Positions 1,915 to 17,391 of a stretch of 20,603 bases of DNA are shown here, piece after piece. A program made the translations under genes and the position numbers. Numbering within the stretch: position 1 is the first letter of the stretch; the number at the start of each line of letters is the position of its first letter. The notes under the pieces are model-generated. The model was not told where the DNA came from and made no database searches. It saw only the letters and a list, made by a program, of their open reading frames with translations. The DNA is from Actinomycetes bacterium (lineage in GTDB: Bacteria > Actinomycetota > Acidimicrobiia > Acidimicrobiales > Palsa-688): NCBI GenBank assembly GCA_021808665.1, contig JAKBBA010000056.1, forward strand, positions 1-20,603. The letters run 5' to 3'.

Positions 1915-2694
1915 TTAGACACCTCGCAGGGTCACGGTTCCGAGCTGTGCGAAGCTCGCGGATACGCATACGCCTGGGCGGATCGGGACCGCGTTTGTCA
2001 TACCGCCCGATAACACGATCGTCCCTCGTCTGAGGCACCCACCCTGAGCGCCTAGCCAGTTAGCCAACAAGGCTACTGCTGAGGCGGGATGGCCGAGTAT
2101 GGCCGCGCCCGCAGCGCTAGCCACGACACGGCTGTTCGTTTGGAGGTTGCAACCGATAAGAGCAAGATCCGTGATATCAGATGGGCGTACTCGCTGCGCC
2201 CCCAAGACGAACCGGCTGGCGCTGGTGTTATCCGCAACCACGTCGGCATAGGTGAAACGGAAGTCAGAGTAGCGGCTGTCGATCACTTCTAGACCACACG
2301 TGAGGTAGCGGGTCGCATCAAGCACGTCGTGGCCGGTGATGCCCGGACCGGTAAGATCGTCACCGAGAACGAAGACGATCTCGGGCTCCACCCTGGGGTG
2401 TATCAGTTTCGAGCAATCCAGGGGATGCTCGACTTCCAGCGCCATGCCAGACATGAGCACGCCGTACACAGGCTGCTCCACGCGCATGGCGATCTGCTTA
2501 GCAATTGATGTAAGCCCGAGTTTGGCACCCACGATGAACTCTCCTGCCGCGACCTTGGCTTCAACGACGAGAGCCTGGATCTGGTAGGCGTCGTCGGCGC
2601 TCAACTCGGGTTCGAGGTCGGTGATGGGATTCACAGCTTCTCGCCTGGCCTCGGCGTCGACGAGGTACGCGGCCCACTTCCCAAGGTCATGCAA
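1915..2694 (-). CDS. dmpH: 4-oxalocrotonate decarboxylase (DmpH/XylI), hydratase superfamily
   Basis: Of the 2-oxopent-4-enoate hydratase/4-oxalocrotonate decarboxylase family, expected to convert 4-oxalocrotonate to 2-oxopent-4-enoate with Mg2+. From TTG at 2694 it is 259 residues, the family norm. The longer open frame to 2868 lies inside the aldolase gene in another phase and has no family sequence. The TTG overlaps the aldolase stop by 8 bases, with AAGGGAG just upstream as ribosome site. Visible family motifs are [29 protein letters not shown] and [11 protein letters not shown]. The metal-binding E-x-E is in RVEPEIVF. Decarboxylase rather than hydratase is assigned mainly by gene order (the H position of EFGHI). 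The paralogue at 4645 would be the hydratase; the two roles could be swapped. Confidence 0.8.
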
Positions 2695-3738: not shown

Positions 3739-4632
3739 TCAGACCCTTTCTGCAGTCAGGTGTAGAGCGATCTGCTCGCCGACTCGAACGGCGGCCGCTG
3801 TCATGATGTCGAGGTTCCCCGAGTAGGGTGGAAGGAAATCTCCCGCCCCTTCGACCTCCAAGAAGACCGCTACGCGCGGAATGCCGTTGCGGGCTGTGCC
3901 GAATTGCGGTGGAACGACCAAGCGGTAACCGGGCACGTAGGCGGCGACGGCCGCGACCATGTCTTCGATCGATGACACTACCTTTTCCCGGTCCACGTCT
4001 TCGGGGACTTGGCAGTAGATCGTGTCACGCATAATTAACGGCGGCTCAGCCGGGTTGAGTATGATGATTGCCTTACCCCGGGAGACTCCTCCGATTGTCT
4101 CGACTGCCCTGGCTGTAGTCGTCGTGAACTCGTCGATGTTCGCCCGGGTCCCGGGGCCTGCTGACTTGGACGCAACTGAAGCCACAATTTCTGCGTAGGG
4201 CACTTCGACCACCCGGCTTATCGCGTAGACCATCGGAATAGTTGCTTGGCCACCGCACGTCACCATATTGACGTTCATTGCGTCGAGGTGCTCTCCCAGG
4301 TTCACCGGTGGAATCACGTAAGGGCCGCGCGCTGCGGGGGTCAAGTCCACTGCGCGGATCCCGGCGGCGGCGAAGCGGGGAGCGTTATGTAAGTGAACAT
4401 ATGCGCTCGTGGCTTCGAAGACGATCGGCGGAAGCTCTGGTCTGGCGAGAAGCCAATCGACTCCATCTGCACTCGCCTCGACTCCGAGCTCTCTGGCCCG
4501 AGACAGACCTTCGCTGCCTGGGTCGATGCCAACCATATAGCGCGCTTCGAGCACGTCAGACCGCACCAACTTGTACAAGAGGTCGGTACCGATATTGCCG
4601 GATCCTACGACCGCCACGGGAACCTTCGACAT
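3739..4632 (-). CDS. dmpF: Acetaldehyde dehydrogenase, acylating (DmpF/BphJ)
   Basis: Oxidises acetaldehyde to acetyl-CoA with NAD+ and CoA, taking its substrate by channelling from the aldolase encoded next. The NAD-binding loop GSGNIGTD is at residues 10-17 and the catalytic Cys126 is in MVTCGGQAT. The C-terminal half carries [19 protein letters not shown], typical of the family. Length is 297 residues. A GTG six bases further upstream is possible, but the ATG at 4632 lies 7 bases after AGGAG and is preferred. It follows the hydratase stop by 12 bases. Confidence 0.92.
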
Positions 4633-4644
4633 GCTCACACTCCT

Positions 4645-5430
4645 CTATACAAAACTGATCTCAACGCGACCCAGCTGGTGAAAGTCGGCTCTGATCCAGT
4701 CGCCGGCGCACACGTCATAAGCACGTGTGCAACTCCCAGGCAAAACCACATCTCCGGCAGCCAGTTGCACGCCGAAGGCGGCGACCTTATTCGCCAACCA
4801 GGCCACGGCGATGGCTGGGTTGCCGAGAACCGCCCCGGAGGAACCGCTGTCGACAATCTCGCCGTTTCGGCGTAGCACAGCGCCGACAGTACGGAGGTCC
4901 AGCTTCTCGACAGAAAGGCAGGTCCCTCCGATTACTACCCCTGCCGAAGAGGCGTTGTCGGCGATAGTGTCGGGCAGGGTGATCCGCCAGTCTTTGATGC
5001 GGCTATCTATGATCTCGATGCAGGGCATCACGAACTCCGTAGCCCGCATCACATCTGCCACGGTGCAGCCCGGACCCGCTAGCGGCCGTGCGAGCATGAA
5101 ACCGATTTCCACCTCGACCCGAGGGGCGCAGAAAGTCTCGGCAGGCAAGTCGTCGCCGTCGAAGACGAACATGTCGTCGAGAAGGTGTCCGTAGTCAGGT
5201 TCATTCACTCCAAGCATTTCCTGCATCGCCCGCGACGACAACCCGACCTTGTGGCCGCGGACGACAGCCCCCGAGGTGACCCGCTCGCTGACATTGAGGA
5301 CCTGGATCTGATATGCATCGTGGGGATCTATGGCTGGCCAGATTTGGGAAAGCGGGTCGATTGGAGTCGTGTCTCGCCGCGCGATCCGCAGTAACTCGGC
5401 CGCCTGGGTTAGTTCCGATTCGCTCAGCAC
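4645..5430 (-). CDS. dmpE: 2-oxopent-4-enoate hydratase (DmpE/XylJ/MhpD)
   Basis: Adds water to 2-hydroxypenta-2,4-dienoate to give 4-hydroxy-2-oxovalerate, the aldolase substrate. It is 261 residues with family motifs AYQIQVLNV, GHKVGLSSRAMQ, PDYGHLLDDM, VEVEIGFML, EIIDSRIKDW and DNASSAGVVIGG. It is a paralogue of the gene at 1915-2694 and occupies the E position of a dmpEFGHI-ordered operon, which supports hydratase. The GTG at 5430 is the first start. The ribosome site is weak: AGAGG lies about 12 bases upstream. It is the first gene of the lower operon, read from a promoter in the iclR-shared intergenic region. Confidence 0.83.
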   Translation of the reverse strand: MLSESELTQAAELLRIARRDTTPIDPLSQIWPAIDPHDAYQIQVLNVSERVTSGAVVRGHKVGLSSRAMQEMLGVNEPDYGHLLDDMFVFDGDDLPAETFCAPRVEVEIGFMLARPLAGPGCTVADVMRATEFVMPCIEIIDSRIKDWRITLPDTIADNASSAGVVIGGTCLSVEKLDLRTVGAVLRRNGEIVDSGSSGAVLGNPAIAVAWLANKVAAFGVQLAAGDVVLPGSCTRAYDVCAGDWIRADFHQLGRVEISFV

Positions 5431-5464
5431 TTGGACGTTTCGCCTCTCAAGTTAGCCTCGCCTG

Positions 5465-5493
5465 AGAATACGCAGATAGCTCCGGAGTTCCAA
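5465..5493 (-). promoter_or_regulatory. Predicted promoter of the lower (dmpE) operon
   Basis: On the minus strand TTGGAA (5488-5493) and TATTCT (5465-5470) are separated by exactly 17 bases, a sound sigma-70-type -35/-10 pair. It lies 35 bases before the hydratase GTG. The palindrome at 5501-5517 is centred about 50 bases upstream of the expected start site, where IclR-family activators commonly bind. Confidence 0.6.
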
Positions 5494-5500
5494 TCCCCGC

Positions 5501-5517
5501 GTTCCGCCCGGTGGAAC
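5501..5517. promoter_or_regulatory. Candidate IclR operator, GTTCC-N7-GGAAC (site 1)
   Basis: A 17-base palindrome between the divergent dmpE and iclR genes. The outer arms are perfect and two inner pairs also match. It ends 7 bases before the -35 of the dmpE promoter and overlaps the -35 region of the iclR promoter. It is therefore placed to activate the operon and repress the regulator. The same arms and spacing recur at 17559-17575. Binding is inferred. Confidence 0.6.
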
Positions 5518-5523
5518 TGCGTC

Positions 5524-5529
5524 TATCAT
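5524..5529 (+). promoter_or_regulatory. Predicted -10 of the iclR gene, leaderless
   Basis: TATCAT ends six bases before the ATG at 5536, so transcription would begin at or next to the start codon. There is no ribosome-binding sequence before that ATG, consistent with a leaderless message, which is frequent in actinobacteria. The -35 region is poor and overlaps the palindrome. Confidence 0.5.
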
Positions 5530-5535
5530 TGGTAC

Positions 5536-6348
5536 ATGGGGAGGCATTCTGAGTCAGCACCGAGGGCGCCGGAACACGGTCGGGCGGAAACTGGATCAAT
5601 CGAGTTGCTTCACCGCACCTTCGATATCCTCGATGCCTTTCGCGGTCCCGGGCATCGCCTTGGCGTGACTGAAATAGCTCGCCGTAGCGCCCTTCCGAAG
5701 TCGAGCGCACATCGTATTCTGGCCTGTCTGGTCTCCCTACACGCTGTGGAGCGAAGCGGTCATGGCTACCAGCTGGGAATGAAGCTGTTCGAGCTTGGAG
5801 AGCTCGTGCCTCGCAAACGCGATCTCCGGGAGGCTGCACTCCCGTTCATGGAGGATCTCTACGAGGTCACTCATGAGACGGTCCACCTCGCGGTGCTCGA
5901 CGGAACGGAAGTCCTGTACATTGAGCGGATCCACGGCCACAACGAGTACCGTCAGCTCGCTTCTCGTGTCGGGGGTCGGCTGCCTGCACACTGCACGGGA
6001 GTGGGAAAAGCTCTTCTCGCCTTCAACCCCGAGTCGGTCGTGGCGCTGCTAGCAACCGGCACGCTTCAAGCCCGAACCGCCTATACAATCACGAGCCCGC
6101 AGGTCTTCGTAGACGAACTGGCGAAGATCCGCCAACGGCGGTTGGCGAGTGACCGCGACGAGAGCGCCATCGGGATCCACTGTGTTGCGGCACCCATTAT
6201 CGTCGACGGCAAAGCCGTCGCAGCTCTGTCGGTCACTGGTCCACCGAACCGTATAGACGAAGAAAAGCTCGGCTCCGCTGTCCGAACCGCCGGTCTCGGA
6301 CTACAACGGGCCCTGAGCGCACCCAACCTGCGGTCGGCGCGCGCATAA
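5536..6348 (+). CDS. IclR-family transcriptional regulator
   Basis: The 270-residue product has the IclR plan: an N-terminal winged helix-turn-helix (about 20-85, with LGVTEIARRSALPKSSAHRI as recognition region) and a C-terminal effector domain with PAHCTGVGKALLAF and the IGIHCVAAPI/ALSVTGP core. The family controls aromatic catabolism (PcaU, PobR, CatR) and usually senses a pathway acid. The frame is open from 5431, but the N-terminal 35 codons before ATG 5536 are not family-like and run through the promoter. It is divergent from the dmpE operon and convergent with the PdxA-family gene. It is the only regulator seen and the likely regulator of both catabolic operons, probably also of itself. 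The effector is unknown. Confidence 0.9.
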   Translation: MGRHSESAPRAPEHGRAETGSIELLHRTFDILDAFRGPGHRLGVTEIARRSALPKSSAHRILACLVSLHAVERSGHGYQLGMKLFELGELVPRKRDLREAALPFMEDLYEVTHETVHLAVLDGTEVLYIERIHGHNEYRQLASRVGGRLPAHCTGVGKALLAFNPESVVALLATGTLQARTAYTITSPQVFVDELAKIRQRRLASDRDESAIGIHCVAAPIIVDGKAVAALSVTGPPNRIDEEKLGSAVRTAGLGLQRALSAPNLRSARA

Positions 6349-6358
6349 GTACCCGACC

Positions 6359-6389
6359 CGAGGGGGCACCTCGAGTCATCGCAGACTCG
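6359..6389. terminator. Possible hairpins between convergent iclR and pdxA-like genes
   Basis: Two adjacent small hairpins lie at the convergent junction: CGAGG-5-CCTCG (6359-6373) and CGAGTC-6-GACTCG (6372-6389). The second overlaps the 3' end of the PdxA-family gene. No U-tract follows on either strand, so intrinsic termination is doubtful. It is listed because no better terminator is visible in this gap. Confidence 0.3.
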
Positions 6390-7356
6390 GAAAGCCTCTG
6401 CCGTTCATTAACGACGACGACGTTCGCAGAGCGGCGCTCATACTCTCGTGGCGAGCCACTCCTTTCCCGGCGATGTCGACGGCGGTCCCGTGCGGCACGG
6501 TCATCCTGATGTAGGGCACTCCAACGTAGAGGGTGCAAGCCCCGAGGAACGCAGCGGTTTTCAGTGCAACCTGGCCCTGGTCGTGGTACATGCTGACGAC
6601 CACATCGAATTCCCCTTCAATGCACCGCCGGAAAACCGAGTCAGGTGGCAACGGCCCAACGGCGTCCAAACCACGCTCTAAAGCTGCCTCGACGGCCGGA
6701 CCGATCTCGGCAACTTCCTCCGCGCCCACTGCGTGCGGATTGAGACCAGCGATCGCATAACGTACCCGGTGCATGCCGTGATCGCCCACATACGCGTTGA
6801 AAAGATCCAGCAGTTCCAAAATGGCATCCCTGGTTACTGTTCCGGGGACGGCGCTGATCGGTATATGTTCAGACAGGGCGATAACGCGCAGATTTCCGTT
6901 GATCCGGAACATGAAAGTACCGGCAGGTTGAAGGTCGTCGATGGAATCGGCCACACCCGCAGCCTTGAATGCCTCTGCGCTCACCGGGGCCATGATCCAA
7001 CCTGCGAGACGACGTTGCTCGCACAGCTGTTCGCAGAGCCTCGCCCACTCGAAGGACGCCCGGCCGCATTCCGCGGAAACAGAGCCGAGGGCCAGGCTCT
7101 GAGCAGCGAGATTGTCCGGGTCGAGGACGTTCAAAGTTCCGGGAGTGCCCTCAAGTTCCATAGTGTCGCCGATAAGCCGGCACCGCCAGTCGTGCATTTG
7201 CGAAACCTCAAGAGCGTTCTCCAAAGCATGCCTGCTGCCGACGAGTACAACCTCGCCAAGGAGATCGGTGTTGGCTGCCAGGGCTTTTACGCATACTTCG
7301 GGCCCGATCCCGTTCGGATCGCCGATCATGAGGCCAATACAGAAAGGATCTATCAT
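6376..7356 (-). CDS. PdxA-family dehydrogenase, probably a dihydrodiol dehydrogenase (TphB-like)
   Basis: A 326-residue member of the PdxA family of metal- and NAD-dependent (decarboxylating) dehydrogenases. GDPNGIGPE is at 12-20 and the three metal histidines are at 164 (SEHIP), 208 (GLNPHA) and 258 (MYHDQG). The PHGTAVDIAGKG segment follows. The PdxA substrate segment is altered: the usual Lys after the AP-I/V turn is absent (APVSAEAF) and the PGHTE motif is missing. That argues against a vitamin B6 role. TphB of terephthalate degradation is a PdxA homologue that oxidises and decarboxylates a cis-dihydrodiol dicarboxylate. The Rieske oxygenase in this operon makes a similar role likely. ATG at 7356 has AGGGGAG upstream. 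The 72-base gap before it is AT-rich. It may have its own promoter, but no convincing one was found. Confidence 0.75.
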   Translation of the reverse strand: MIDPFCIGLMIGDPNGIGPEVCVKALAANTDLLGEVVLVGSRHALENALEVSQMHDWRCRLIGDTMELEGTPGTLNVLDPDNLAAQSLALGSVSAECGRASFEWARLCEQLCEQRRLAGWIMAPVSAEAFKAAGVADSIDDLQPAGTFMFRINGNLRVIALSEHIPISAVPGTVTRDAILELLDLFNAYVGDHGMHRVRYAIAGLNPHAVGAEEVAEIGPAVEAALERGLDAVGPLPPDSVFRRCIEGEFDVVVSMYHDQGQVALKTAAFLGACTLYVGVPYIRMTVPHGTAVDIAGKGVARHESMSAALRTSSSLMNGRGFPSLR

Positions 7357-7428: not shown

Positions 7429-8181
7429 CTAGGCTAGCGACGTAACAAGCGTCTCGAGGGCTAATACGAGTAGTCCAGCGAGGACGATCCGCTCAAAGCT
7501 CTCGGTGCTGAGGTGTTGCCGAAGCGCCGATCCGATCGCCAGGCCGCCGAGCAAAGGAACCAGTGCGGCTGCGCTCAGCGCGACCCTGGTCAGGTCGTAG
7601 TGACGGAGGACAGCGAGATACGCGACCTGAAATGCTGTCAGTACCTCGAATACGGCGGCCATCGTGAAGACAAAGGCCTCCTTGCGGAAGCCTACGGCAT
7701 TCAGGTACGTGGCGAGGACCGGTCCTGACACCCCCGTAGCGCCCTGAAGGAAGCCGACGAGGACCGCTGCCGGTGCACCAACGACTTTGCCGGTCGTAGT
7801 ACCGATACGAAACTCCGGCCGGAGCGACCTGACCACTACGTACATTACGATGACACCCGCAAGCAGTTCACCGAGGACCGTCTCTTTAGCCGTTGTAAAG
7901 AGCAAGGTGCCGGCGACGATACCGCCGAAGCCAAACAGCGTCAGGACTAGCAATGAGCGGCTACGCACCATCCCAGATCGGGAGGACCACATTTGTCCGG
8001 CGTTCGTGGCGAGATTGGTGAGCACGATGATCGGCACCGCCGCCTTTAAGCCCACGGCGTGCCCGAGAAAAGGGACCGCGACCACGTTCTGGCCGAGACC
8101 GATACTTCCCTTCACCACACCCGCCACCAGGAGACCAGCGGTAGCAAGAACGAGGGCCTCGAATCCAGCGTGCGCTACCAC
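7429..8181 (-). CDS. TSUP (TauE/SafE) family membrane permease
   Basis: About 250 hydrophobic residues with roughly eight membrane segments. The family-type N-terminal helix holds VAGVVKGSIGLG, and the repeat half holds GFLQGATGVSGPVLATYL. TSUP proteins move sulfite, sulfonates or small organic acids across the membrane. The open frame extends to 8424, but that part overlaps the upstream small gene and is not membrane-like. The GTG at 8181 overlaps that gene's stop and precedes the first helix directly. Its place in the operon suggests uptake of the substrate or export of a by-product such as sulfite. The direction and ligand cannot be read from sequence. Confidence 0.78.
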   Translation of the reverse strand: MVAHAGFEALVLATAGLLVAGVVKGSIGLGQNVVAVPFLGHAVGLKAAVPIIVLTNLATNAGQMWSSRSGMVRSRSLLVLTLFGFGGIVAGTLLFTTAKETVLGELLAGVIVMYVVVRSLRPEFRIGTTTGKVVGAPAAVLVGFLQGATGVSGPVLATYLNAVGFRKEAFVFTMAAVFEVLTAFQVAYLAVLRHYDLTRVALSAAALVPLLGGLAIGSALRQHLSTESFERIVLAGLLVLALETLVTSLA

Positions 8182-8483
8182 CGTCCCGGTTCCAGCCCCG
8201 CCAAGAGGTCTTTCGTGCCCGTACCAGTCCACTCCGCCTGTTCGGTCGGTAAGTTGCCGTTTTCTGCGGAGGACCATCGCGCGGCTGGATCCATCAAGTC
8301 GTCCTGTTGATCCGGGGACAACCATATTATGCTCTCCAGGAATAACGCGTCGAAGGTGGCCGTCCTCCCAGTTCGCAGGTCGACGAGTCGCAGGCGCAGG
8401 GCATTGCCTGTGTCGTCCTTGCATATCTCCACAGCCGCGAATTCGTTCTCGATCACAAGGCGACCGTCTTCCATCTGGAACAC
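8175..8483 (-). CDS. Small Rieske-dioxygenase-associated protein (often labelled dihydrodiol dehydrogenase)
   Basis: A 102-residue cytoplasmic-type protein with no signal or membrane segment. The central pattern is a VIENEFAAVEI strand, then LRLRL, then a FDALFLESIIW segment. It resembles from memory a small actinobacterial family often annotated as dihydrodiol dehydrogenase and found beside ring-hydroxylating dioxygenases. It is far too short to be an enzyme of the classical SDR type, so that label is doubtful. A GTG at 8483 or an ATG at 8474 may start it; neither has a strong ribosome site. It follows the beta subunit by three bases and overlaps the TSUP start, which makes it a true operon member. 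It may be an assembly or regulatory partner of the oxygenase; this is inference. Confidence 0.65.
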   Translation of the reverse strand: MFQMEDGRLVIENEFAAVEICKDDTGNALRLRLVDLRTGRTATFDALFLESIIWLSPDQQDDLMDPAARWSSAENGNLPTEQAEWTGTGTKDLLAGLEPGRW

Positions 8484-8486
8484 GTT

Positions 8487-9011
8487 CTAGAGAAGGAAGG
8501 TGAGGTTGCGGATATGGCCGTCATTATTGACCAGGCATACCTTCTTAACGCGAATCCGGAACCCGTCGCTCGCCACATCGAGGTCGTGGGTAACTGCCGC
8601 GAAATAGGTGGTCTGTATGCCGCAGCGGAATTCCGCTATCGCCTGGTTTGAACGGACCGTGACGGAGCTGTCGGTCGCGTCAAGAACCTCGATGTTCGCA
8701 ACCAGGCGCACCGTCCGGGAAGGGGGATCCTGCGAATGAGCAGCGGGGCTACGCAGACGAACTACCCGCTCCGCGAGGCGTTGGCGGTCGTCGTATATCA
8801 GCGATACGTGCTCGGTAGGATCGTAATCGTCCTCGTTGCACGGCACCCAGTAGGTGAGGGCGCCCTCCTCGGCCCACAGCGACAGCCACTGTTCATAACG
8901 GTGCTCGTCGAGCAATCGAGCTTCGTGGAATAGGAATTCAGCGGCGCCCCCTACCGGCAAGCGGTCACCCGTGACGGCAGACCTATCCCTGTCCAGATTC
9001 ACCTGACTCAC
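8487..9011 (-). CDS. Aromatic-ring-hydroxylating dioxygenase, beta subunit
   Basis: A 174-residue NTF2/SnoaL-fold small subunit that supports the alpha subunit in an (alpha-beta)n oxygenase. Recognisable parts are EFLFHEARLLDEHRYEQWLS, LTYWVP, VSLIYDDRQRLAERVVRLRS and RTVRLVANIEV, all typical of BenB/CmtAc/HcaF-like subunits. The start is GTG at 9011, overlapping the alpha stop as GTGA; a second GTG at 9002 is possible. The longer open frame to 9086 lies in the alpha gene and is not family-like. It is co-translated with alpha. Confidence 0.85.
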   Translation of the reverse strand: MSQVNLDRDRSAVTGDRLPVGGAAEFLFHEARLLDEHRYEQWLSLWAEEGALTYWVPCNEDDYDPTEHVSLIYDDRQRLAERVVRLRSPAAHSQDPPSRTVRLVANIEVLDATDSSVTVRSNQAIAEFRCGIQTTYFAAVTHDLDVASDGFRIRVKKVCLVNNDGHIRNLTFLL

Positions 9012-10354
9012 CTGTCGACCGCCCCGCTCACCACAGCCTCGGGCATCACAGTTCCCTCTGATCGTCCCGTCATTACCCAAAGCCACTGCTTAAAGCGCCC
9101 ACGATCGGTTGTCTCATCGGTGATCTGGCCAATCACGGTCCCTTTATCATCGACGGTCTCGCGCTGGAGTCCCCTCGCAAAGAGTAGCCATGGCTCCTTG
9201 TCATTCAGGTTACCTTGGTATGCGCGCTCGAACATCTCGCCGTCGTCGGGCGTCCCGAAACTGGCAGGCCCGTGGAACCACTCGTGGCCCCGGATCCGGG
9301 CCAGGTTGATCTGCTTCGGAGCACCTTTGAGGGTGGCCGGGTAGCAGTCGACCCGGGTGACACCGGGTGCCACGGGCCGCAAGACACGGATATGTGCACC
9401 GGTTAGTTGCAAGTTCGGCCACACATGCATGTGCGGATCGGCCTCCCACATGTAGCGGGCCGCTCCCTCGGGACCGTAAGCGGATTCCATCATCTCACGG
9501 TACTGTCGGTTCGCATCGGATTCGCCCACGCTGCGGGCGAATGCGAGCAGGCTTCCCGTCTCCTCCTGCTGCTCGTCGAGCCTGACGTGTCCGTTGCCGA
9601 GATCGATTGTGCGCTGACGGGACTGCTCGCCGTACTGGTTGAACGTTGCGGACGCCATGTCCTTCGATCTCACCGCCATAATGTCCTGGACGGAGCGGTG
9701 CGTGAATTCGGGGTGGTAACCGTCCATGCCGACATATTTCCAGTTGCCGAAAAACTCCATCTTTGTGACCCCGGCCCGGGCCTCGATTTCGCCGGTAGGA
9801 GACGCGTCGACAAACATGTCGATGCCCTCGCGCGCCCTCCCGAGGTAGTCTTCAAATGTAACCGGCGCCCCTCGCAGGCTGGCGAACACGAACCCTCGGT
9901 AGGTTCCCGTCTGTGCGACCTCAGTCAACCCAAGCCATGACTTGTCGAACCCGTCACCGTATCCGTTGGGAAACGGCACACCGACGAGATCTCCGTCGTT
10001 GCGGTAGGTCCACCCGTGATAACCGCAACGGAAGAAGCCGGCGTTCCCGCTGTCGCGATGGCAGACGATCGCCCCACGGTGGCGGCAGCGATTGAACAAC
10101 AGCTTGACCTCCCGTGTCCGCGAACGAGCCATAATGAGCTGCTCAGTACCGACGTGTTTGACGACATAGTCCCCTGGCTCGGGGATCTCGCTGTCATGGC
10201 CGACATACACCCACCAGTGCTCGAAGATGCGCCTCATCTCCTCCGCAAAGACGTCGGGGTGCGTGAAGACGGCGCTGTGCACTCTCTCGTCGAGGACGAG
10301 CCGGTGATAGTCAATCATTCCATCGGCTGTCATAGGTAACGGTGTTTTGGTCAT
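9008..10354 (-). CDS. Rieske aromatic-ring-hydroxylating dioxygenase, alpha subunit
   Basis: Catalytic subunit of 448 residues that adds O2 to an aromatic ring to give a cis-dihydrodiol. The Rieske [2Fe-2S] ligands are Cys90, His92, Cys110 and His113 (CRH...CGYH). The mononuclear iron site shows Asp211-x2-His214-x4-His219 (DGYHPEFTH), with Asp211 as the bridging residue to the neighbouring Rieske centre. ATG 10354 follows GGGAGG at good spacing. The open frame to 10414 overlaps the end of livF and is not family sequence. A beta subunit follows, but no ferredoxin or reductase gene is in the window. The general type is that of benzoate/cumate/terephthalate-like oxygenases; the substrate, probably an aromatic acid, is not determinable. 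Confidence 0.92.
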   Translation of the reverse strand: MTKTPLPMTADGMIDYHRLVLDERVHSAVFTHPDVFAEEMRRIFEHWWVYVGHDSEIPEPGDYVVKHVGTEQLIMARSRTREVKLLFNRCRHRGAIVCHRDSGNAGFFRCGYHGWTYRNDGDLVGVPFPNGYGDGFDKSWLGLTEVAQTGTYRGFVFASLRGAPVTFEDYLGRAREGIDMFVDASPTGEIEARAGVTKMEFFGNWKYVGMDGYHPEFTHRSVQDIMAVRSKDMASATFNQYGEQSRQRTIDLGNGHVRLDEQQEETGSLLAFARSVGESDANRQYREMMESAYGPEGAARYMWEADPHMHVWPNLQLTGAHIRVLRPVAPGVTRVDCYPATLKGAPKQINLARIRGHEWFHGPASFGTPDDGEMFERAYQGNLNDKEPWLLFARGLQRETVDDKGTVIGQITDETTDRGRFKQWLWVMTGRSEGTVMPEAVVSGAVDR

Positions 10355-10370
10355 TCGGTCCTCCCTGTTG

Positions 10371-11120
10371 TCACTTGTTCTCAGCTTCTCTCTCGAATCT
10401 GTGGGCGCCATCATGGGACGCTCCTAGGTAGTGGCTCTGGATGGACTCATCAGCGAGTAGCTCTTCGGCGACGCCAGAACGGACCACCGCGCCACTCTCC
10501 AAGACGTAAGCCCTCTTAGCTATAGCGAGACTTGCACGCAGGTTCTGCTCGACCAGCATTACGCTCCGGCCGGCAGTGTGCAGCTCCTGAAGGACAGCGA
10601 AAATCCGGTCGCATACCAAAGGAGCCAATCCGAGAGACGGCTCGTCCAGGATCAGCAACCGCGGATCCGACATCAAGGCACGGGCAATCGCTACCATTTG
10701 CTGCTGACCGCCCGACAGGGATCCCGCCATCACATCCAGGTACGGCCGCAGCTCAGGAAAGAGACTTAAGCAGTAGTCCTGCCGCTGAGGCAAGCGGCGG
10801 CCCTTCCTCTTGCTGAAGTATCCGAGAGTCAAGTTATCACGGACGGACATGCCTGGAAAGAGCTGGCGACCCTCGGGAACCAAGACGACGCCCATAGTCA
10901 CCATCTCATGCGCTGGAAGCCTTGAGGTGTCCTTGCCACAAAACGTTACTGATCCGCTCATCGGCGGCTCAAGACCTGCGATACAACGCAACAGTGTCGT
11001 CTTCCCCGCGCCGTTTGCACCAAGAAGTGCGACCAGCTCGCCTTCGGATACCGATATTGAAACCTCGCGGACTGCAGGAGATCCCCCATAGCCAACCGTT
11101 AGAGAATCAACTTCAAGCAC
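10371..11120 (-). CDS. livF: ABC transporter ATP-binding protein, branched-chain type (LivF)
   Basis: A 249-residue ATPase of the hydrophobic amino acid transporter family. Walker A GANGAGKTT is at 34-42, the signature LSGGQQ at 135-140, and Walker B LLILDE at 155-160. VPEGRQLFPGMSVRDNL is the LivF-type segment. GTG 11120 overlaps the end of the LivM-LivG fusion by 8 bases. The Rieske alpha gene begins 16 bases downstream, so transport and oxygenase are probably on one message. In catabolic clusters, transporters of this class import aromatic acids. Confidence 0.92.
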   Translation of the reverse strand: MLEVDSLTVGYGGSPAVREVSISVSEGELVALLGANGAGKTTLLRCIAGLEPPMSGSVTFCGKDTSRLPAHEMVTMGVVLVPEGRQLFPGMSVRDNLTLGYFSKRKGRRLPQRQDYCLSLFPELRPYLDVMAGSLSGGQQQMVAIARALMSDPRLLILDEPSLGLAPLVCDRIFAVLQELHTAGRSVMLVEQNLRASLAIAKRAYVLESGAVVRSGVAEELLADESIQSHYLGASHDGAHRFEREAENK

Positions 11121-13083
11121 GGTCGGCGCCCCCCGTCATCGAACGCGGCCCTGGAGCAGCTGATGCTCTTTCTTGACCGAGGTATGCATCGATGACAGCC
11201 GTAACCTTCCGAATCTCGTCAGGGGTTCCGGAACCAATCACATTTCCTTGATCGAGGACGATAACCTGATGCGAAATAGACATGACGAGATCCATGTTGT
11301 GCTCGACCAGCAACACGGTACAACCACTCTCGTTGAGTTTCTTGAACAGCTCAGCCAACTCTCCGCGCTCATGGTCGTTTGAGCCGGCGGCCGGTTCGTC
11401 CACGACCAGCAGTGATGGCCTGGCCATTAAGGCGCGGGCGATCTCGAGACGACGCTGGTGTCCCAGGGGAAGCTGACCGGCCGGACGATCGTCAAATCCT
11501 TCGAGGCCGATCAGGCGTATCAACTGCCGGGCGAACTCCGCGTCGTCCTTCTCGCGCTTGCGGTATCCACGGAGACCTAGAAGTGCTCCGGGGAGGGAGC
11601 CGGCTGATAGTGCACTTCCGCCCGTCAACACGTTGTCCAGAGCGCTCATGGTGAGCTCCAGTCGAGGGGTCTGGAACGTCCGTCCGATTCCCGCTCTCGC
11701 AACTTTGTGCGGCAAGGGCTGGTGCATTCGTTTACCATTTAACTCCAGCACACCTCGATCCGGAGCTACGGCCCCGGTGATGACGTTTAGCAAGGTGGTC
11801 TTTCCGGCGCCGTTTGGGCCGATCACCGACGTTATGGAGCCGGATGGGACAGCAAACGTCACGCCCGACAGAACATGGAGACCAGAAAACGACTTCACTA
11901 TACCCTGCACCCGCAGGATGTCTTCTGTCCTGTGTGTACCCGGCGGCTGCCCGCAACCACTCGCCGGTGGTGACTCGGTCTGGGCGACGCGGAGGGAAAC
12001 TGGGAGAGCTAACTCCGATATTGGAAGTCGCTCCTGGCGTAACCGCCCGGCAGTTCGCCGCCAAGGACCACGTTTCGCTACGCGTTGCACCGCCGCTGCA
12101 ACACCGGGAACGATGCCCATCGGAAAGAACCTGAGCACTGCCAGCAGAACGCCTCCGTCGATGAGCAACTGGAAGCGCTGCGCGCTCGGGGCGATCTGTG
12201 GGACAGCCTGGAGTATCGCTACTCCAATTATCGCTCCGATGATGCTGCCTACGCCTCCGAGCACATGCATCACGAACACCTGAAGGCTCGCCTGGTAACC
12301 CACGAGACCCGGTGACACGAATTGTAGCGTCCCCGCATAAAGCGCTCCGGCGACCCCGGCTAGCGCTGCGCTGATCACAAAAGCTGCGACCTTATATCGC
12401 ACCACCGGTACCCCGAGTGAACCGGCCATCAGTTCATCTCTGCCGATTGCCTTCAAGGCGCGTCCTCTAGGCGACTTGGCGAACTGGTGCAGAACTACCC
12501 CGACGACGACGACGACAACCCAAGCGAGCACGTACTGGCGCAAAGGAGAGCTGATGGCGTAGCCAGCGAAGGAGATGGACGGTACGATCTCCCCGCTGGG
12601 ACCTCCCGTAACCTTACTCCATCCGGAACTGATCGTCTCGACGATGTCAGCAAAGGCGAGGGTGGCCAAGGCAAGGTATAGCCCACGCATCCGGAGGAGT
12701 ACCACACCCATCACAAGAGCGACCGCGACGCACAACACCAAGCCGAACGCCAGGCCTGCGAGGGCTGGCCAGTGATAGCGAGCACTCATGTGGGCCATGG
12801 TGTAGGCAGTGACGGCCATGAAGCCCCCTTGGCCGAGCGATAATTGCCCGCTGTAACCGTGAAGGGCTACGAGCCCGATGGTCACGAGGGCCAACTCGCC
12901 GACCTCCGTAGCGACAGTCATGTTGGCAGCGCTCAACAAAGTGGGCAGAACAACTAGTACGGCGATACCCAATGCAAGTCCAAGGCTCGTGGCGCCTGCC
13001 GTTCCTATCTTGAGGCCTGCACGGACTATTCGCGGAGGCATCACCTCGTCATCGGCTATCGGCTCCATCTCGGTCATGAACAT
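11113..13083 (-). CDS. Fused ABC permease-ATPase (LivM-LivG)
   Basis: One 656-residue chain. The N-terminal ~335 residues form a LivM-type permease with several membrane helices and the GYSGQLSLGQGGFMA motif at 76-90. A linker of about 50 residues follows. From ~388 there is a LivG-type ATPase with Walker A GPNGAGKTT at 422-430, the Q-loop TFQTPRL, the signature variant LPLGHQRR at 538-545 (usually LSYGxQRR) and Walker B LLVVDEP at 558-564. There is no stop or frameshift in the linker, so the fusion is real in this sequence. An ATG at 13077 is an alternative start. The partner permease LivH is upstream and LivF downstream, giving a complete importer. Confidence 0.9.
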   Translation of the reverse strand: MFMTEMEPIADDEVMPPRIVRAGLKIGTAGATSLGLALGIAVLVVLPTLLSAANMTVATEVGELALVTIGLVALHGYSGQLSLGQGGFMAVTAYTMAHMSARYHWPALAGLAFGLVLCVAVALVMGVVLLRMRGLYLALATLAFADIVETISSGWSKVTGGPSGEIVPSISFAGYAISSPLRQYVLAWVVVVVVGVVLHQFAKSPRGRALKAIGRDELMAGSLGVPVVRYKVAAFVISAALAGVAGALYAGTLQFVSPGLVGYQASLQVFVMHVLGGVGSIIGAIIGVAILQAVPQIAPSAQRFQLLIDGGVLLAVLRFFPMGIVPGVAAAVQRVAKRGPWRRTAGRLRQERLPISELALPVSLRVAQTESPPASGCGQPPGTHRTEDILRVQGIVKSFSGLHVLSGVTFAVPSGSITSVIGPNGAGKTTLLNVITGAVAPDRGVLELNGKRMHQPLPHKVARAGIGRTFQTPRLELTMSALDNVLTGGSALSAGSLPGALLGLRGYRKREKDDAEFARQLIRLIGLEGFDDRPAGQLPLGHQRRLEIARALMARPSLLVVDEPAAGSNDHERGELAELFKKLNESGCTVLLVEHNMDLVMSISHQVIVLDQGNVIGSGTPDEIRKVTAVIDAYLGQERASAAPGPRSMTGGADRA

Positions 13084-13097
13084 CTAGCCACCGGGAT

Positions 13098-13982
13098 TCA
13101 GACCCGCCTGACAACATCGCCGGAACGGCCCAGTACTCCTGCAGGAAACACAGCAAGAACGACCATGAGGATCGCAAACACAATGGCGGTTCCGAACAAT
13201 GCAGACACGTACCCGGTCACGACAGCATTCAGAAGTCCAACGCTGATGCCCCCGAGGATCGCTCCCGAACTTTTACCAAACCCGCCGATGCCAAGCGCGA
13301 TGAACGCGTACAACAAGAATCCTATACCTGAGTCGAAGGAAACGAATGTGATCGGCACGATTAGAACGCCAGCGAGAGTCGCTAGGGCCGCCGCTACCAT
13401 GAAAGTCACCCTGGTCGCCTTTTCAGTCTTGATCCCGACGAGCTTCGCCGCCTCCTTGTTCTGCGAGATCGCGCGAAGCGCCTTCCCCCAAACTGTACGG
13501 TTGAAGACGAGCCACACAGCGATAGACGCCGAAACGCATGCGCCGACCACCCACATTGTCTGGGTTGGGATACTCACTCCGCTAACCAGGTACGGCCTCG
13601 CACCGCTGAATGAGCGAAGGCCGTAGACGTTGGTTCCCCATACGGCCTGTTCGACTCCTCTCATGATCAAGGCGACCGCCAGAGTAATTATAAACGGTGA
13701 TCGGATCCTTGAACCACCCCGCGAGGGTGCACGGATGCTGATGTCGAACTGGACCGCTCCTAGGACCGCCGCCCCCGCCATCGCCGTCACGATGGCGATG
13801 GGTAAAGGCAAACCATGACCGACAATCCCGATAACAACGAACGCGCCCAGCACGGCGAACTCGGTAACGGCTACATTAAGCACGTCCGCACTCATAATAA
13901 TGAGATTGATGGCAATGCCGAGAAGAGCGTAACAACTGCCCGTCGTCAGGCCGGAGATGAGGGTATCGAGCAAACGCACCAT
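13098..13982 (-). CDS. livH: ABC transporter permease, branched-chain type (LivH)
   Basis: A 294-residue integral membrane protein with about eight helices. It begins in the family style (LISGLTTGSCYALLGIAINLI) and carries the cytoplasmic coupling segment GKALRAISQNKEAAKLVGI, followed by the GGFGKSSGAILGG loop. It forms the channel with the permease half of the downstream fusion protein. ATG 13982 follows the binding-protein stop by 17 bases; the ribosome site is weak (GCAGG). Confidence 0.92.
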   Translation of the reverse strand: MVRLLDTLISGLTTGSCYALLGIAINLIIMSADVLNVAVTEFAVLGAFVVIGIVGHGLPLPIAIVTAMAGAAVLGAVQFDISIRAPSRGGSRIRSPFIITLAVALIMRGVEQAVWGTNVYGLRSFSGARPYLVSGVSIPTQTMWVVGACVSASIAVWLVFNRTVWGKALRAISQNKEAAKLVGIKTEKATRVTFMVAAALATLAGVLIVPITFVSFDSGIGFLLYAFIALGIGGFGKSSGAILGGISVGLLNAVVTGYVSALFGTAIVFAILMVVLAVFPAGVLGRSGDVVRRV

Positions 13983-13999: not shown

Positions 14000-15217
14000 T
14001 TACGACGCGCCAGGCGGCACTACGTAAGTGCCGTTCTCGACCTGAGCTATGACGAGCGAATTGTTCTGAAGGCTCTTCTCGCCTTTGTGATCAGTCGAGG
14101 TGATGTTGTAGACGCCTTCCATCCCCTGGTAGTTCACGACATGCTCAAGCGCATTCACTTCGGCGGACAGGTTCGTGCCACCTTCGGTGAGTGCTCGCAC
14201 CACCATATTGACAGGATCATAGGCCAGAACTCCGCCTTCGTCGAGCGGCTGGTGTGCAGACGACTCAATAAGGGCATTGGCGTTCTTGCCCATGACTGCG
14301 TATGGATCGGTCGAAGGAAGTTTGTTCCACAGAATGGCCTTGAACACCGGTGCAAAAAGTTCCTTCGGGTTGAAGGAAGCAGTGGATTGGGCGAACTTCA
14401 GGCTTCCATTCGCCCATGACACTATTAGTGGGATGTTGCTGGTTGACTCCTGCGTGAACGCCTTTGCCACCACGTTGGCGGGAAGACCCGAAACCCAGGA
14501 GATGAGCGCTTGCGGCTTGGAGCCCAGTACGTTGGCTAACTCCGGAGTGATGTCAGGGTTCGTCGGGTCGAAGGCTACTGCACCCGCAAGTTTCATGCCG
14601 AGGCTTTGACCGTAGCTTCCCTTTAGCACTGATTCAACTTCCTGCTGCGCTATCGATCCGGCGGCGTCGTTCGAGCTTAGGAGCCCGACTCGTGATAGCC
14701 CTTTTTGTTTTAGAAAACGCAAGGTGGCACCCAGCGGTGACGAGTCATATGGAGAAATAGAGAAAATGTTGGATGGCACCGGCGGTGTATAGCCACTACC
14801 GAAGTCCACGATAAGTGTATGAGCACCAAAGGGCTGGATCGCCGTCATAGTGGTGGCGGTAGGGCCGAACATCATGACATTGGCATGCGCCGCAACGAAT
14901 GCCTTGGCATCGAGAATTGCCTGGTTGGGATTGTTCTGATTGTCCTTGACGATAACCTCGACCTTGTGACCGTGGATTCCCCCCGAAGAGTTGATCTTGG
15001 CGAACATCGCCTGAGCCATACTGGCCTCTTGGGCGCCGAAAGCGGCGGCGGGACCCGTTAGGTCAGTTGATACTCCCACAACATACGGCGACCCACCGGC
15101 AGTACTTGATGCAGGTGTGCTCGTAGATACGGCTGTTCCTTGCTTGTTGGTGCTTCCGCAGGCGGCCGCCAGAAGAGCGAGTCCGCCGACAGAAGCCGCA
15201 ACCTTGTAGCGTTTCAT
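14000..15217 (-). CDS. livK: ABC transporter substrate-binding lipoprotein (LivK-like)
   Basis: A 405-residue periplasmic-binding protein (type I fold) anchored as a lipoprotein. It has a short Lys/Arg N-terminus, a hydrophobic core and lipobox LAAAC with Cys20, then a Ser/Thr/Ala-rich linker. The YVVGVSTDLTGPAAAFG opening is typical of the Leu/Ile/Val-binding family, as are the later ISPYDSSP and LAYDPVNMV segments. ATG 15217 has AAGGGGAA just upstream, the strongest ribosome site in this operon. This fits the high stoichiometry of binding proteins. The context suggests an aromatic acid as ligand. Confidence 0.92.
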   Translation of the reverse strand: MKRYKVAASVGGLALLAAACGSTNKQGTAVSTSTPASSTAGGSPYVVGVSTDLTGPAAAFGAQEASMAQAMFAKINSSGGIHGHKVEVIVKDNQNNPNQAILDAKAFVAAHANVMMFGPTATTMTAIQPFGAHTLIVDFGSGYTPPVPSNIFSISPYDSSPLGATLRFLKQKGLSRVGLLSSNDAAGSIAQQEVESVLKGSYGQSLGMKLAGAVAFDPTNPDITPELANVLGSKPQALISWVSGLPANVVAKAFTQESTSNIPLIVSWANGSLKFAQSTASFNPKELFAPVFKAILWNKLPSTDPYAVMGKNANALIESSAHQPLDEGGVLAYDPVNMVVRALTEGGTNLSAEVNALEHVVNYQGMEGVYNITSTDHKGEKSLQNNSLVIAQVENGTYVVPPGAS

Positions 15218-15286: not shown

Positions 15287-16327
15287 CTACCTGCTAGATC
15301 GAGCAACGGAAGCGAAGAGACGGCTCGCGTTACCACGCCTTATCTTGTCGAGCGACTCTTCTCCCAACCGTTCCAGGTGGCTCAATATCGCTCCGGGCGG
15401 TGATTCCCGAGCATCGAATGGATAGTCGCTGCCCACCATGACGTTGTCTATGCCGAACCTGGCGATCGACATCTGAAGGCAAAGCGGATCGTATGCAAGC
15501 GTGTCACACATGAACCTACTGGCAGCGTCGAGAGGCGAGACCGCGCTACCGGTACCCTGAGGAAAGATATCGAAGCCTCGATCGAGTCGCGGTAAGATCG
15601 ATGGGAGCGCTCCACCAGCGTGCGCGAGGCAGATCTGTACGTTCGGCCACCGATCGAACACACCGCCGAGAGCTAACTTAGCTGCGGCAGTCGCCGTCTC
15701 GCAAGGCATGCCTGCACCGAATTGGAGACTTGGCGTTGTGAACCTAGAGGCATCCGGGAATTCAGCCGGATGGACAAAGACCAGCGCTCCAAGCCGCTCG
15801 GCGGCGGCGAAGAACGGTTCGAGGCTCGTATCGCTAAGCTCCCGGCCGGCCACATACGAGCCAACCTCGACTCCGAGGAATCCGAGGGAACGGACACAGT
15901 ACTCAAGCTCATGTATCGCCGCAGCGGTGTCCTGGAGAGGGACAGCGCCTAGAGCGGCGAAACGTTCGGCGCTCTCATCTCTCAGACTGGCAAGGAACTG
16001 ATTCTGGAAGCGGCACAGCTCCCGTGCGCCATCGGCTGGGGCCCGGTAACAGAACGTGACTGGTACCGGGGAAAGGACCTGGACAGCAACCCCTTCCTGG
16101 TCCATGTCAGCCAGTCGCCGCGCTGCCGACCAGGAACGGCTGTCGATCGTCCTGAAGTAGCGACCACCTACTAAGATCTCGGCTTCGTCATTCCCTATAG
16201 GGCGCACGCTTGGCCAACTGTCGAACGGATATCGGTCCTCTAGGCGGGGCATTGCGGGCGAGATCGCGTGCGTGTGTATATCGACTACGTCATTCAACAC
16301 AGGCCCGTCACAGTCGCTCAGCACGTC
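15287..16327 (-). CDS. ACMSD-like metal-dependent decarboxylase (amidohydrolase superfamily)
   Basis: Closest in pattern to 2-amino-3-carboxymuconate-6-semialdehyde decarboxylase. It has DIHTH (His17, His19), MDQEGVAVQV, AVPLQD, VFVHP (His185), ICLAHAGG (His235) and VMVGSDYPF (Asp300), i.e. the complete metal set. It is about 346 residues. In the pra pathway the decarboxylase PraH removes CO2 from 5-carboxy-2-hydroxymuconate-6-semialdehyde and belongs to this group as I recall. The gene is next to the ring-cleavage dioxygenase, so removing a carboxylate from the cleavage product is the likely job. The start is uncertain: TTG 16342, GTG 16327 (overlapping the dioxygenase stop, chosen) or GTG 16300. 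Family members can also decarboxylate aromatic acids directly. Confidence 0.78.
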   Translation of the reverse strand, partial: DVLSDCDGPVLNDVVDIHTHAISPAMPRLEDRYPFDSWPSVRPIGNDEAEILVGGRYFRTIDSRSWSAARRLADMDQEGVAVQVLSPVPVTFCYRAPADGARELCRFQNQFLASLRDESAERFAALGAVPLQDTAAAIHELEYCVRSLGFLGVEVGSYVAGRELSDTSLEPFFAAAERLGALVFVHPAEFPDASRFTTPSLQFGAGMPCETATAAAKLALGGVFDRWPNVQICLAHAGGALPSILPRLDRGFDIFPQGTGSAVSPLDAASRFMCDTLAYDPLCLQMSIARFGIDNVMVGSDYPFDARESPPGAILSHLERLGEESLDKIRRGNASRLFASVARSSR

Positions 16328-17391
16328 GGCTCGTATACGCAAAAGGCCTTGTTAGAATTAAACACTTCGGTACGGACCATATCTGCCCAGTTCGGAGTGC
16401 GCCGGCCAAGTTCTTCCATCGCCCCTACTAAGCAGAACCAGTTCAGCATCTCCTGCTGGCCGGATCGTTCGAGATCGCCAACCGCCTTGGAACGCCATTG
16501 ATTCGTGTCACCTTGTAGAAGCGCCTGGTATAACTCCATGTCGGCATCGGTGTCCGGTCTGAGACGCCATGTCTTGTCGCACAAGAACGCGTGCGACCAA
16601 CTTGAGGACGCTACGAGCGCGACCTTGAGCGGCTGATCAGCGAAGAAACGGGCGACTGCAGCGCCGACATCCATCATGTGACTAGGTGAAGGCGAGGGCG
16701 GGTCCAGCTCACGCTGCTCGCCGAACCTGCTGAGAAAACCCTTGTAGCTCACTACCTTGCGGCCGTAGCAATTCACGGGAAAGGGGATTATCGGATAGCT
16801 GAATCCTCTACGGTCATAATCGAGGTAGAGGATCGCGTTCAGAAAGGCGTGCGGAAGACCCGGATGGTGAAGCTGGGTGTAGCTGTACGCAACCGGTAGG
16901 TCGTCTTCAGTCAGCGCTGTCACCAAGGCTTTGGCCAGATCCGGTCGACCTCGAACGATGAATGACGTTGAAGGAGGTTCATTCCAGATGTTCGCCTTCC
17001 CAACCATATCGGACGACTCCTGAACCATCTTCCACGGATACAGGAGTAGATCGCCGTAAGCCAAGACTGCGTACGGGGGAATGACATCCTCGCGGAAGTT
17101 CTCGTACTGGTCGTCCCCCCAGATGAGGAGGACATCGGGCGAGAAATCGTCTAGGACTTGACGAACTTCACGGAAGGCGGCCACAAGCCGAGTACGGTGC
17201 TCACTGGCGGCTGCCGCCCCCCCGTCGTCAGCCCACTCTCGCCGCATTTCCTTCGGCCAGGTTTCCGGCTGCTTCTCCGCGGCGGGGATATCAGGATCCT
17301 CAAGTGTCCATCGGAGTATCCCAGCCATGTCTTCGTCGCGCCCGCTCAGCGGCGGGTAGTGGGAGAGACCGATTCCGAGAATCTCACCCAC
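16318..17391 (-). CDS. Class III extradiol ring-cleavage dioxygenase (LigB superfamily)
   Basis: A 357-residue LigB-type enzyme expected to open a catecholic ring next to its two hydroxyls with Fe(II). Candidate site residues are His11 (GLSHYPP), His267 (ASSSWSH, the position of the LigB catalytic histidine) and Glu314 (GQQEMLNW). The second LigB metal histidine (NDH) aligns with Gln95 in WGDDQYENF, a replacement I recall from a related subfamily. It is probably the first gene of the upper operon. GTG 17391 starts it, with no clear ribosome site. There is no sign of the small LigA-type partner. The adjacent ACMSD-like gene suggests a carboxylated substrate such as protocatechuate, cleaved in the 2,3 position. 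Confidence 0.75.
   Translation of the reverse strand: MGEILGIGLSHYPPLSGRDEDMAGILRWTLEDPDIPAAEKQPETWPKEMRREWADDGGAAAASEHRTRLVAAFREVRQVLDDFSPDVLLIWGDDQYENFREDVIPPYAVLAYGDLLLYPWKMVQESSDMVGKANIWNEPPSTSFIVRGRPDLAKALVTALTEDDLPVAYSYTQLHHPGLPHAFLNAILYLDYDRRGFSYPIIPFPVNCYGRKVVSYKGFLSRFGEQRELDPPSPSPSHMMDVGAAVARFFADQPLKVALVASSSWSHAFLCDKTWRLRPDTDADMELYQALLQGDTNQWRSKAVGDLERSGQQEMLNWFCLVGAMEELGRRTPNWADMVRTEVFNSNKAFCVYEPTC

Follow-up and report, generated by a model that had tools for sequence, protein, structure and literature searches.

What does a predicted extradiol dioxygenase of the LigB fold do when its gene overlaps that of a decarboxylase related to ACMSD of the kynurenine pathway? Such a pair lies in a 20,603-nucleotide stretch of contig JAKBBA010000056.1 from an actinobacterium of the order Acidimicrobiales (the whole stretch is called the window here). 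Both genes were found on the reverse strand where an earlier note on this DNA had placed them (Table 1), with the end of the LigB gene overlapping the start of the amidohydrolase gene by 25 nt, or by 7 nt if the later start codon is chosen. The note had proposed that the pair cleaves protocatechuate at the 2,3 position, as in the pra pathway of Paenibacillus. Judged from sequence, the most likely role of the pair is to cleave a dihydroxybenzoate in extradiol fashion and to decarboxylate it, and a substrate of the 2,3-dihydroxybenzoate type is somewhat favored over protocatechuate. In the specific form of this reading, to which we give an even chance, the pair would open the ring by 3,4-cleavage of a 2,3-dihydroxybenzoate and then remove the carboxylate by ACMSD-type decarboxylation, following the logic of the opa, dhb, and cmt pathways with a LigB-fold enzyme in place of their VOC enzyme. 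Protein families, gene order, phylogenies, and partner exchanges were observed, and from these we infer every reaction and substrate. The sequence of events put forward in the note, from ring cleavage through loss of the carboxylate to processing of the 2-hydroxymuconic semialdehyde (HMS) type, is still the most sensible reading.

LigB-fold and VOC enzymes trade places in related clusters

We compared 86 loci with a strong LigB match, 79 from one scan of genome contigs and 7 on plasmids; neighborhood counts refer to the 63 loci flanked on each side by 7.5 kb or more, and all counts depend on the chosen score cut-offs. The Rieske oxygenase of the window falls in an 11-row clade (support 95/84) in which every row is PdxA-linked except L031, which is cut off by a contig end. 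Inside this clade lies the Rieske oxygenase of a cluster on Caballeronia zhejiangensis plasmid p3 (L093), which encodes a hydrolase, a VOC protein, a class II aldolase, a hydratase, an aldehyde dehydrogenase, an aldolase, Rieske proteins, a ferredoxin, and PdxA, and which is 42% identical to the window in the Rieske large subunit and 49% in PdxA. There, the VOC protein and class II aldolase occupy the positions of LigB and the ACMSD-type enzyme. The family of this VOC protein is named 2,3-dihydroxy-p-cumate/2,3-dihydroxybenzoate 3,4-dioxygenase in 32 of the 32 JGI-named rows among 120 listed, although this name is an automatic annotation and the NCBI names in the same list are general.

A second exchange was found in the SDR-linked clade, where L097, with two VOC genes, and L027, with a LigB and ACMSD-like pair, are sisters in the Rieske tree (100/100). 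The L097 VOC protein is 55% identical to that of L093, and the L027 LigB protein is 59% identical to that of the window. Like the window, L097 combines Rieske genes, a Liv-type ABC transporter, and ACMSD-like, hydratase, aldehyde dehydrogenase, aldolase, and hydrolase genes; unlike the window, it has an SDR for PdxA in addition to the two VOC genes. LigB and VOC enzymes trade places in otherwise alike clusters, and this is most simply read as LigB taking over the reaction of the VOC enzyme. In the window itself, two VOC queries gave no match above threshold.

The nine class II aldolases found beside LigB are 43%–59% identical to the VOC-linked class II aldolase. We dropped L092 as a further swap because its class II aldolase proved to be a genuine PhtC (390 bits, cut-off 200), whose identity to the nine does not exceed 33%. 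L092 is a Mycolicibacterium rufum plasmid on which a distant LigB relative lies beside this PhtC (3,4-dihydroxyphthalate decarboxylase), Rieske genes, a hydrolase, and a meta-cleavage lower pathway. Another plasmid (L101, from Pseudonocardia sp. EC080610-09) carries a LigB-type match and, elsewhere, a cluster in which VOC and ACMSD-like genes are joined by separate Rieske, SDR, and hydrolase genes.

Across the 63 full-flank loci, an ACMSD-like gene was found in 26, a class II aldolase in 8, and neither in 29. Among the 29 Rieske-bearing loci, 7 have PdxA only, 11 SDR only, and 11 neither. The two members of each of these pairs never co-occur above cut-off in one locus, while many loci show neither; L072 was counted as having the class II aldolase only, with a weak ACMSD match (about 80 bits) adjoining that aldolase. 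The 34 decarboxylase-bearing loci divide into 14 with only the hydrolase, 5 with only an HMS-dehydrogenase-like gene, 4 with both, and 11 with neither. Strong LigB matches (E below 1e-90) are infrequent: in an even draw of 296 genomes from the phylum of a Mycolicibacterium locus (L019), they occurred in 3, including the query genome and one partial match, compared with 24 for any LigB match (E up to 0.001). The suggestion in the note that such a route is unusual in actinobacteria agrees with this sample, although LigB relatives are spread over several phyla; the rows with a named source closest to the window in the LigB tree are actinobacterial.

The decarboxylase is of the ACMSD type

Human ACMSD matches the window amidohydrolase with an E value of 1e-68 and 118 of 322 identical residues (37%), far more strongly than aromatic decarboxylases (2e-23 and weaker), which rules out a direct aromatic decarboxylase and bears out the grouping with ACMSD in the earlier note. 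H23, H25, H191, and D306 correspond to the Zn ligands, with H241 in addition, and R64 and R252 to the substrate arginines. All 121 of 121 rows keep the Zn ligands, the catalytic His, and the first arginine; the second arginine is present in 120, with one gap, and the position of human Trp191 is Phe in all 121.

The window enzyme and ACMSD of the kynurenine pathway thus have the Zn ligands and both arginines in common, and they differ in partner, which is 3-hydroxyanthranilate dioxygenase (3HAO) for ACMSD and the LigB-fold dioxygenase here. A kynurenine-type role was ruled out, as no 3HAO gene was recognized among the window open reading frames (ORFs) and the 3HAO-linked ACMSDs (three rows) form their own clade (100/98). 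Relatives of the window decarboxylase at other loci interleave with VOC-linked decarboxylases: those of L097 and L100 group with 13 LigB-linked decarboxylases in one clade (100/99), which lies outside the half of the tree that holds the window and 3HAO-linked decarboxylases.

A glutamine replaces a predicted iron ligand

The window LigB protein belongs to the LigB/PCAD superfamily at the level of domain and fold, with about 20% sequence identity to the type II extradiol dioxygenases LigB, DesB, and MhpB. Its predicted site residues are H11, D93, Q95, and E314, with H181 and H267 as acid/base. Alignments place Gln (Q95) at the second iron-ligand His position in 119/120 homologs, where the usual site is His-His-Glu and where LigB, DesB, and MhpB have His. 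The matching position in LigB is presumably His61. The neighboring Asn of these enzymes is Asp in the window; at residues 93–95 of the window protein and in L008, L009, and L089–L092, a conserved D-D-Q (in some N/K-D-Q) takes the place of the N-D-H of LigB and DesB. The other elements of the classical type II site are present: H11, equated with the first iron-ligand His by reading the sequence rather than by residue-level structural alignment, is kept in 118/120 homologs (two gaps), and E314, H181, and H267 are each kept in 120/120. In DesB, the second iron-ligand His is His59 (PMC3962378).

The Gln spans a broad LigB branch in which the remaining catalytic residues are kept. The string GDDQYEN is absent from only 2 of the 86 loci, a figure biased by its use as one of the two patterns in the locus-finding scan. 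Annotations of the family go no further than broad names like extradiol ring-cleavage dioxygenase. We found no characterized member of the Gln-type branch, and paper searches on Gln-type LigB iron sites and on DesZ/LigZ gave no recognized description of the family; DesZ (3-O-methylgallate dioxygenase) may belong to this branch, and the novelty of the site is provisional. Possible, if doubtful, is a history in which this large branch swapped the iron-ligand His for Gln, independently gained 3,4-cleavage of 2,3-dihydroxybenzoates, and traded places with the unrelated type I enzymes more than once, an ACMSD-type decarboxylase being recruited alongside.

A proposed route and its relation to known pathways

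In the route that we propose, the Rieske dioxygenase and PdxA-like dehydrogenase would convert an imported aromatic acid to 2,3-dihydroxybenzoate, either plain or substituted at C4. The LigB-fold enzyme would then cleave beside the diol, at the 3,4 position, giving a 3-carboxy-2-hydroxy-6-oxo-dienoate, which is the oxygen analog of the natural ACMSD substrate. Decarboxylation of this product by the ACMSD-type enzyme would yield 2-hydroxymuconic semialdehyde or its 6-alkyl analog, from which the CumD-like hydrolase, followed by the hydratase, aldolase, and acetaldehyde dehydrogenase, would produce pyruvate and acetyl-CoA.

The closest parallel in logic is opa of Pseudomonas sp. PTH10, which degrades o-phthalate via 2,3-dihydroxybenzoate (PMC6362003). 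The opa pathway and the predicted gene set of the window have in common a Rieske oxygenase, dihydrodiol dehydrogenase, ring-cleavage enzyme, ACMSD-related decarboxylase, tautomerase, 4-oxalocrotonate decarboxylase, hydrolase, hydratase, aldolase, and acetaldehyde dehydrogenase (PMC6362003). In that system, work that included mutants showed that a VOC enzyme and an ACMSD relative carry out 3,4-cleavage of 2,3-dihydroxybenzoate and decarboxylation, the ACMSD relative OpaD acting on 3-carboxy-2-hydroxymuconate semialdehyde (PMC6362003). The differences are the type I (VOC) enzyme OpaC, a BenD-like dehydrogenase, a TRAP transporter, and an HMS dehydrogenase in opa, against LigB, a PdxA-like protein, an ABC transporter, and no HMS dehydrogenase seen in the window (PMC6362003). 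More generally, where opa, dhb, and cmt have a VOC 3,4-dioxygenase and an SDR dihydrodiol dehydrogenase, the window has the LigB fold and a PdxA-like protein.

The cmt pathway for p-cumate in Pseudomonas putida F1 and Burkholderia xenovorans LB400 likewise has a Rieske oxygenase, dehydrogenase, ring-cleavage enzyme, decarboxylase, HOMODA hydrolase, hydratase, aldolase, and acetaldehyde dehydrogenase in common with the window (PMC5224996). Its CmtC has 314 aa, and its CmtD, at 244 aa, is shorter than the ACMSD relatives; the portion of the description available mentions no tautomerase or 4-oxalocrotonate decarboxylase, both of which the window has (PMC5224996). AromaDeg lists 2,3-dihydroxy-p-cumate cleavage among type I (VOC) enzymes (PMC4250580).

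By analogy, the upper pathway of the window would consist of a Rieske oxygenase and a PdxA-like dehydrogenase acting on a carboxylated ring. A TphB-type terephthalate pathway is unsupported: the window PdxA matches D-threonate-4-phosphate dehydrogenase (2e-48) far better than TphB (1e-14), and its Rieske oxygenase, with a best match of 7e-51, reaches only 4e-21 against terephthalate dioxygenase.

Phthalate-type relatives and the case for protocatechuate

Several observations weigh against the 2,3-dihydroxybenzoate reading, as does the automatic origin of the VOC name. In 7 of the 86 loci (L011, L013, L017, L024, L034, L037, and L051), genes of the Pht3-like and Pht5-like kinds score above threshold in the vicinity of LigB; four of these loci (L011, L013, L017, and L024), which are actinobacterial with LigB proteins 61%–64% identical to that of the window, also carry an ACMSD-like gene. 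Such phthalate-4,5-like genes predict protocatechuate, since 4,5-dihydroxyphthalate stripped of one carboxylate is protocatechuate and not 2,3-dihydroxybenzoate. In 21 loci, a MarR-like gene lies no more than some 300 bases from LigB; these loci span all three upper-pathway kinds, which hints at one common ring-cleavage substrate. On the decarboxylase side, midpoint rooting puts the 3HAO-linked clade in the same half of the tree as the window decarboxylase, to which human ACMSD (37% identical) is no more distant than are the betaproteobacterial LigB-linked decarboxylases (about 33%–38%). L101 had to be dropped from the VOC argument, its VOC protein being only 29% identical to that of L093. The window tautomerase and 4-oxalocrotonate decarboxylase stand without the dehydrogenase that usually feeds them, and the dioxygenase activity of the window LigB protein is itself a prediction, with Q95 replacing an iron-ligand His.

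Next to LigB, the four actinobacterial loci encode an oxygenase of the Rieske/LigXa_C type, a Gfo/Idh oxidoreductase, and a protein resembling 4,5-dihydroxyphthalate decarboxylase. Both domains, Rieske and LigXa_C, are present in the oxygenases of L013 and L017; in L017, the Gfo/Idh oxidoreductase is encoded by the third gene. In L011, the Pht5-like protein shows 43% identity to the product of a plasmid gene annotated as 4,5-dihydroxyphthalate decarboxylase; among the 20 matches listed in the Pht5-like search, only one plasmid (two records) bears this name, and most others are called ABC transporter substrate-binding protein or are unnamed. None of the Pht3-, Pht4-, and Pht5-like proteins tested had a phthalate-specific match in NCBIfam. 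In the LigB tree, Pht-bearing loci interleave with XylM-linked ones in a 12-row clade (99/95), and L034 adjoins PdxA-linked L070 (91/89). Across the seven loci, the genes beside LigB are of Pht3-, Pht4-, and Pht5-like kinds; no ACMSD above threshold was found in L034, L037, or L051. L037 and L051 (Pigmentiphaga) have an operon of Pht5-like, LigB, hydrolase (identified as an ORF in L037 and by tblastn in L051), Pht3-like, and Gfo/Idh genes; with neither an ACMSD-like gene nor a class II aldolase above threshold nearby, the later decarboxylation there has no recognized candidate gene.

These relatives support a serious rival, which we nonetheless consider somewhat unlikely for the window: the Rieske and PdxA-like enzymes would turn a phthalate isomer into protocatechuate, LigB would produce 5-carboxy-2-hydroxymuconic semialdehyde, and the ACMSD-type enzyme would act as PraH. 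A route through protocatechuate would have to use 2,3-cleavage, as only this suits an ACMSD-type decarboxylase. The lower-operon order next to IclR in L017 and L024 equals that of the window, and the MarR-like gene argues for one substrate; no MarR-like match above threshold was found in the window itself. TctC-type receptors are often linked with phthalates. They occur in 7 of the 8 PdxA-linked related loci (not in L007), though also in many others (14 of the 63 full-flank loci). For L007 (Sphingobium AntQ-1), the available part of the transcriptome report assigns phthalate to the pht2345 route and gives the LigB, PdxA, and Rieske genes no substrate (PMC9836352). Against protocatechuate stand the 2,3-dihydroxybenzoate-type VOC enzyme of L093 within the window's Rieske/PdxA clade, the distance of the window enzymes from TphB and terephthalate dioxygenase, the NCBIfam result and the rarity of the Pht5-like name, and the lack of an HMS dehydrogenase (the PraB role) among the window ORFs. 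The substrate named in the note fits the gene sets of the four actinobacterial relatives and sits less well with the window's own upper pathway.

The pra pathway of Paenibacillus sp. JJ-1b reportedly has an IclR-type regulator, as in the window, and no Rieske/PdxA upper part, unlike the window. It cleaves protocatechuate at the 2,3 position and, as proposed for the window, follows ring cleavage with decarboxylation by an ACMSD relative (PraH) and an HMS-type lower pathway. It differs in having the PraB dehydrogenase and in the size of its ring-cleavage enzyme PraA, about 293 aa by gene length (881 bp; PMC13254512) compared with 357 aa for LigB. No pra-like operon was recognized in the annotation tables of two Bacillota plasmids (L104 and L105).

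The lower pathway and substituted benzoates

The pra-type genes for tautomerase, 4-oxalocrotonate decarboxylase, hydratase, aldolase, and acetaldehyde dehydrogenase are all present in the window, so the resemblance of the lower operon to pra seen in the note extends to most meta-cleavage genes; a CumD-like hydrolase accompanies them, and no HMS dehydrogenase was seen among the window ORFs. The hydrolase matches CumD at 2e-115 and the next different protein at 5e-50, although the structure listing names no DmpD or XylF and CumD may be best by default.

This hydrolase suggests a narrower form of the 2,3-dihydroxybenzoate reading, contained within it and improbable when taken alone, in which a para-alkyl or para-aryl benzoate would be degraded as in cmt: the cleavage product would be a ketone, from which the hydrolase would free a short-chain or aryl acid. 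Consistent with this, two betaproteobacterial PdxA-linked loci (L038 and L070) have the hydrolase, hydratase, aldehyde dehydrogenase, and aldolase with no HMS-dehydrogenase-like match, and in four mycobacterial loci (L015, L016, L019, and L064) the Rieske, LigB, and ACMSD genes are accompanied by those for a XylM/AlkB-like hydroxylase (Pfam FA_desaturase), an alcohol dehydrogenase, and an aldehyde dehydrogenase, so alkylbenzenes may feed some LigB clusters. The window tautomerase and 4-oxalocrotonate decarboxylase point instead to an unsubstituted semialdehyde, as does the HMS-dehydrogenase-like gene of L015 and L019, which is 80%–81% identical to an aldehyde dehydrogenase beside the L005 tautomerase.

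It is very unlikely that LigB, for all its conserved Gln and uncharacterized branch, has an altered metal site that does not cleave rings, leaving the amidohydrolase to decarboxylate an intact aromatic acid and a gene outside the window to encode the cleavage enzyme, given the ACMSD grouping, the exchange between LigB and VOC dioxygenases seen with L093 and L097, and the size and otherwise intact catalytic residues of the Gln branch.

Gene content of the window

Downstream of the pair on the same strand follow the Liv-type ABC transporter, the Rieske large and small subunits, a small ORF, TauE, and the PdxA-like gene; beyond the divergent IclR gene, the lower operon runs from the hydratase-like gene through acetaldehyde dehydrogenase, aldolase, 4-oxalocrotonate-decarboxylase-like, and tautomerase genes to the alpha/beta hydrolase (Table 1).

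Table 1. Predicted genes of the LigB–ACMSD-type locus and their positions in the window
Feature	Position	Strand	Remarks
LigB-fold extradiol dioxygenase, predicted	16318..17391	-	357 aa, GTG start
ACMSD-type decarboxylase	15287..16342	-	351 aa, or 345 aa from GTG at 16324
ABC transporter substrate-binding protein, branched-chain amino acid type	14000..15217	-	
ABC permease, LivH type	13098..13982	-	
Fused ABC permease and ATPase (LivM-LivG)	11113..13083	-	single 656-aa fusion protein
ABC ATPase, LivF type	10371..11120	-	
Rieske ring-hydroxylating dioxygenase large subunit	9008..10414	-	PdxA-linked clade
Rieske dioxygenase small subunit	8487..9086	-	
Small ORF, 102 aa, after Rieske genes	8175..8483	-	no Pfam match
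TauE/SafE-family membrane protein	7429..8424	-	true start probably later
PdxA-like dehydrogenase, probable cis-dihydrodiol dehydrogenase	6376..7356	-	role inferred from context
IclR-family regulator	5431..6348	+	divergent from lower operon
2-oxopent-4-enoate hydratase-like, FAA family, HpaH/DmpE side	4645..5430	-	below curated cut-offs
Acylating acetaldehyde dehydrogenase	3739..4638	-	above curated cut-off
4-hydroxy-2-oxovalerate aldolase	2687..3733	-	above curated cut-off
4-oxalocrotonate decarboxylase-like, FAA family, DmpH/NahK side	1915..2868	-	below curated cut-offs; true start probably later
4-oxalocrotonate tautomerase-like	1702..1914	-	70 aa
Alpha/beta hydrolase, closest to CumD (2-hydroxy-6-oxo-7-methylocta-2,4-dienoate hydrolase)	875..1792	-	

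The small ORF between the Rieske small subunit and TauE genes has a 41% match at the equivalent place in L010 and is probably a real gene. A possible zinc-ribbon protein (103–396, match below the Pfam cut-off) adjoins the end of the catabolic operon. Positions 18803–20601 encode the C terminus of an SbcC/Rad50-like ATPase and, after it, a protein whose weak match to NurA falls slightly short of the cut-off; neither seems to be related to the catabolic genes.

Implications

The window carries an almost complete gene set for degrading an aromatic acid, with a ring-opening enzyme of a little-studied kind that seems to replace the unrelated enzyme used in known pathways. If the 2,3-dihydroxybenzoate reading is true, it would assign a function to a large family now annotated in general terms alone, add a second, unrelated enzyme solution to 3,4-cleavage of 2,3-dihydroxybenzoates, and provide a natural test of whether a His-Gln-Glu site supports extradiol cleavage. 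Pathway calls that seek only the type I enzyme may then miss such routes in actinobacteria and other bacteria.

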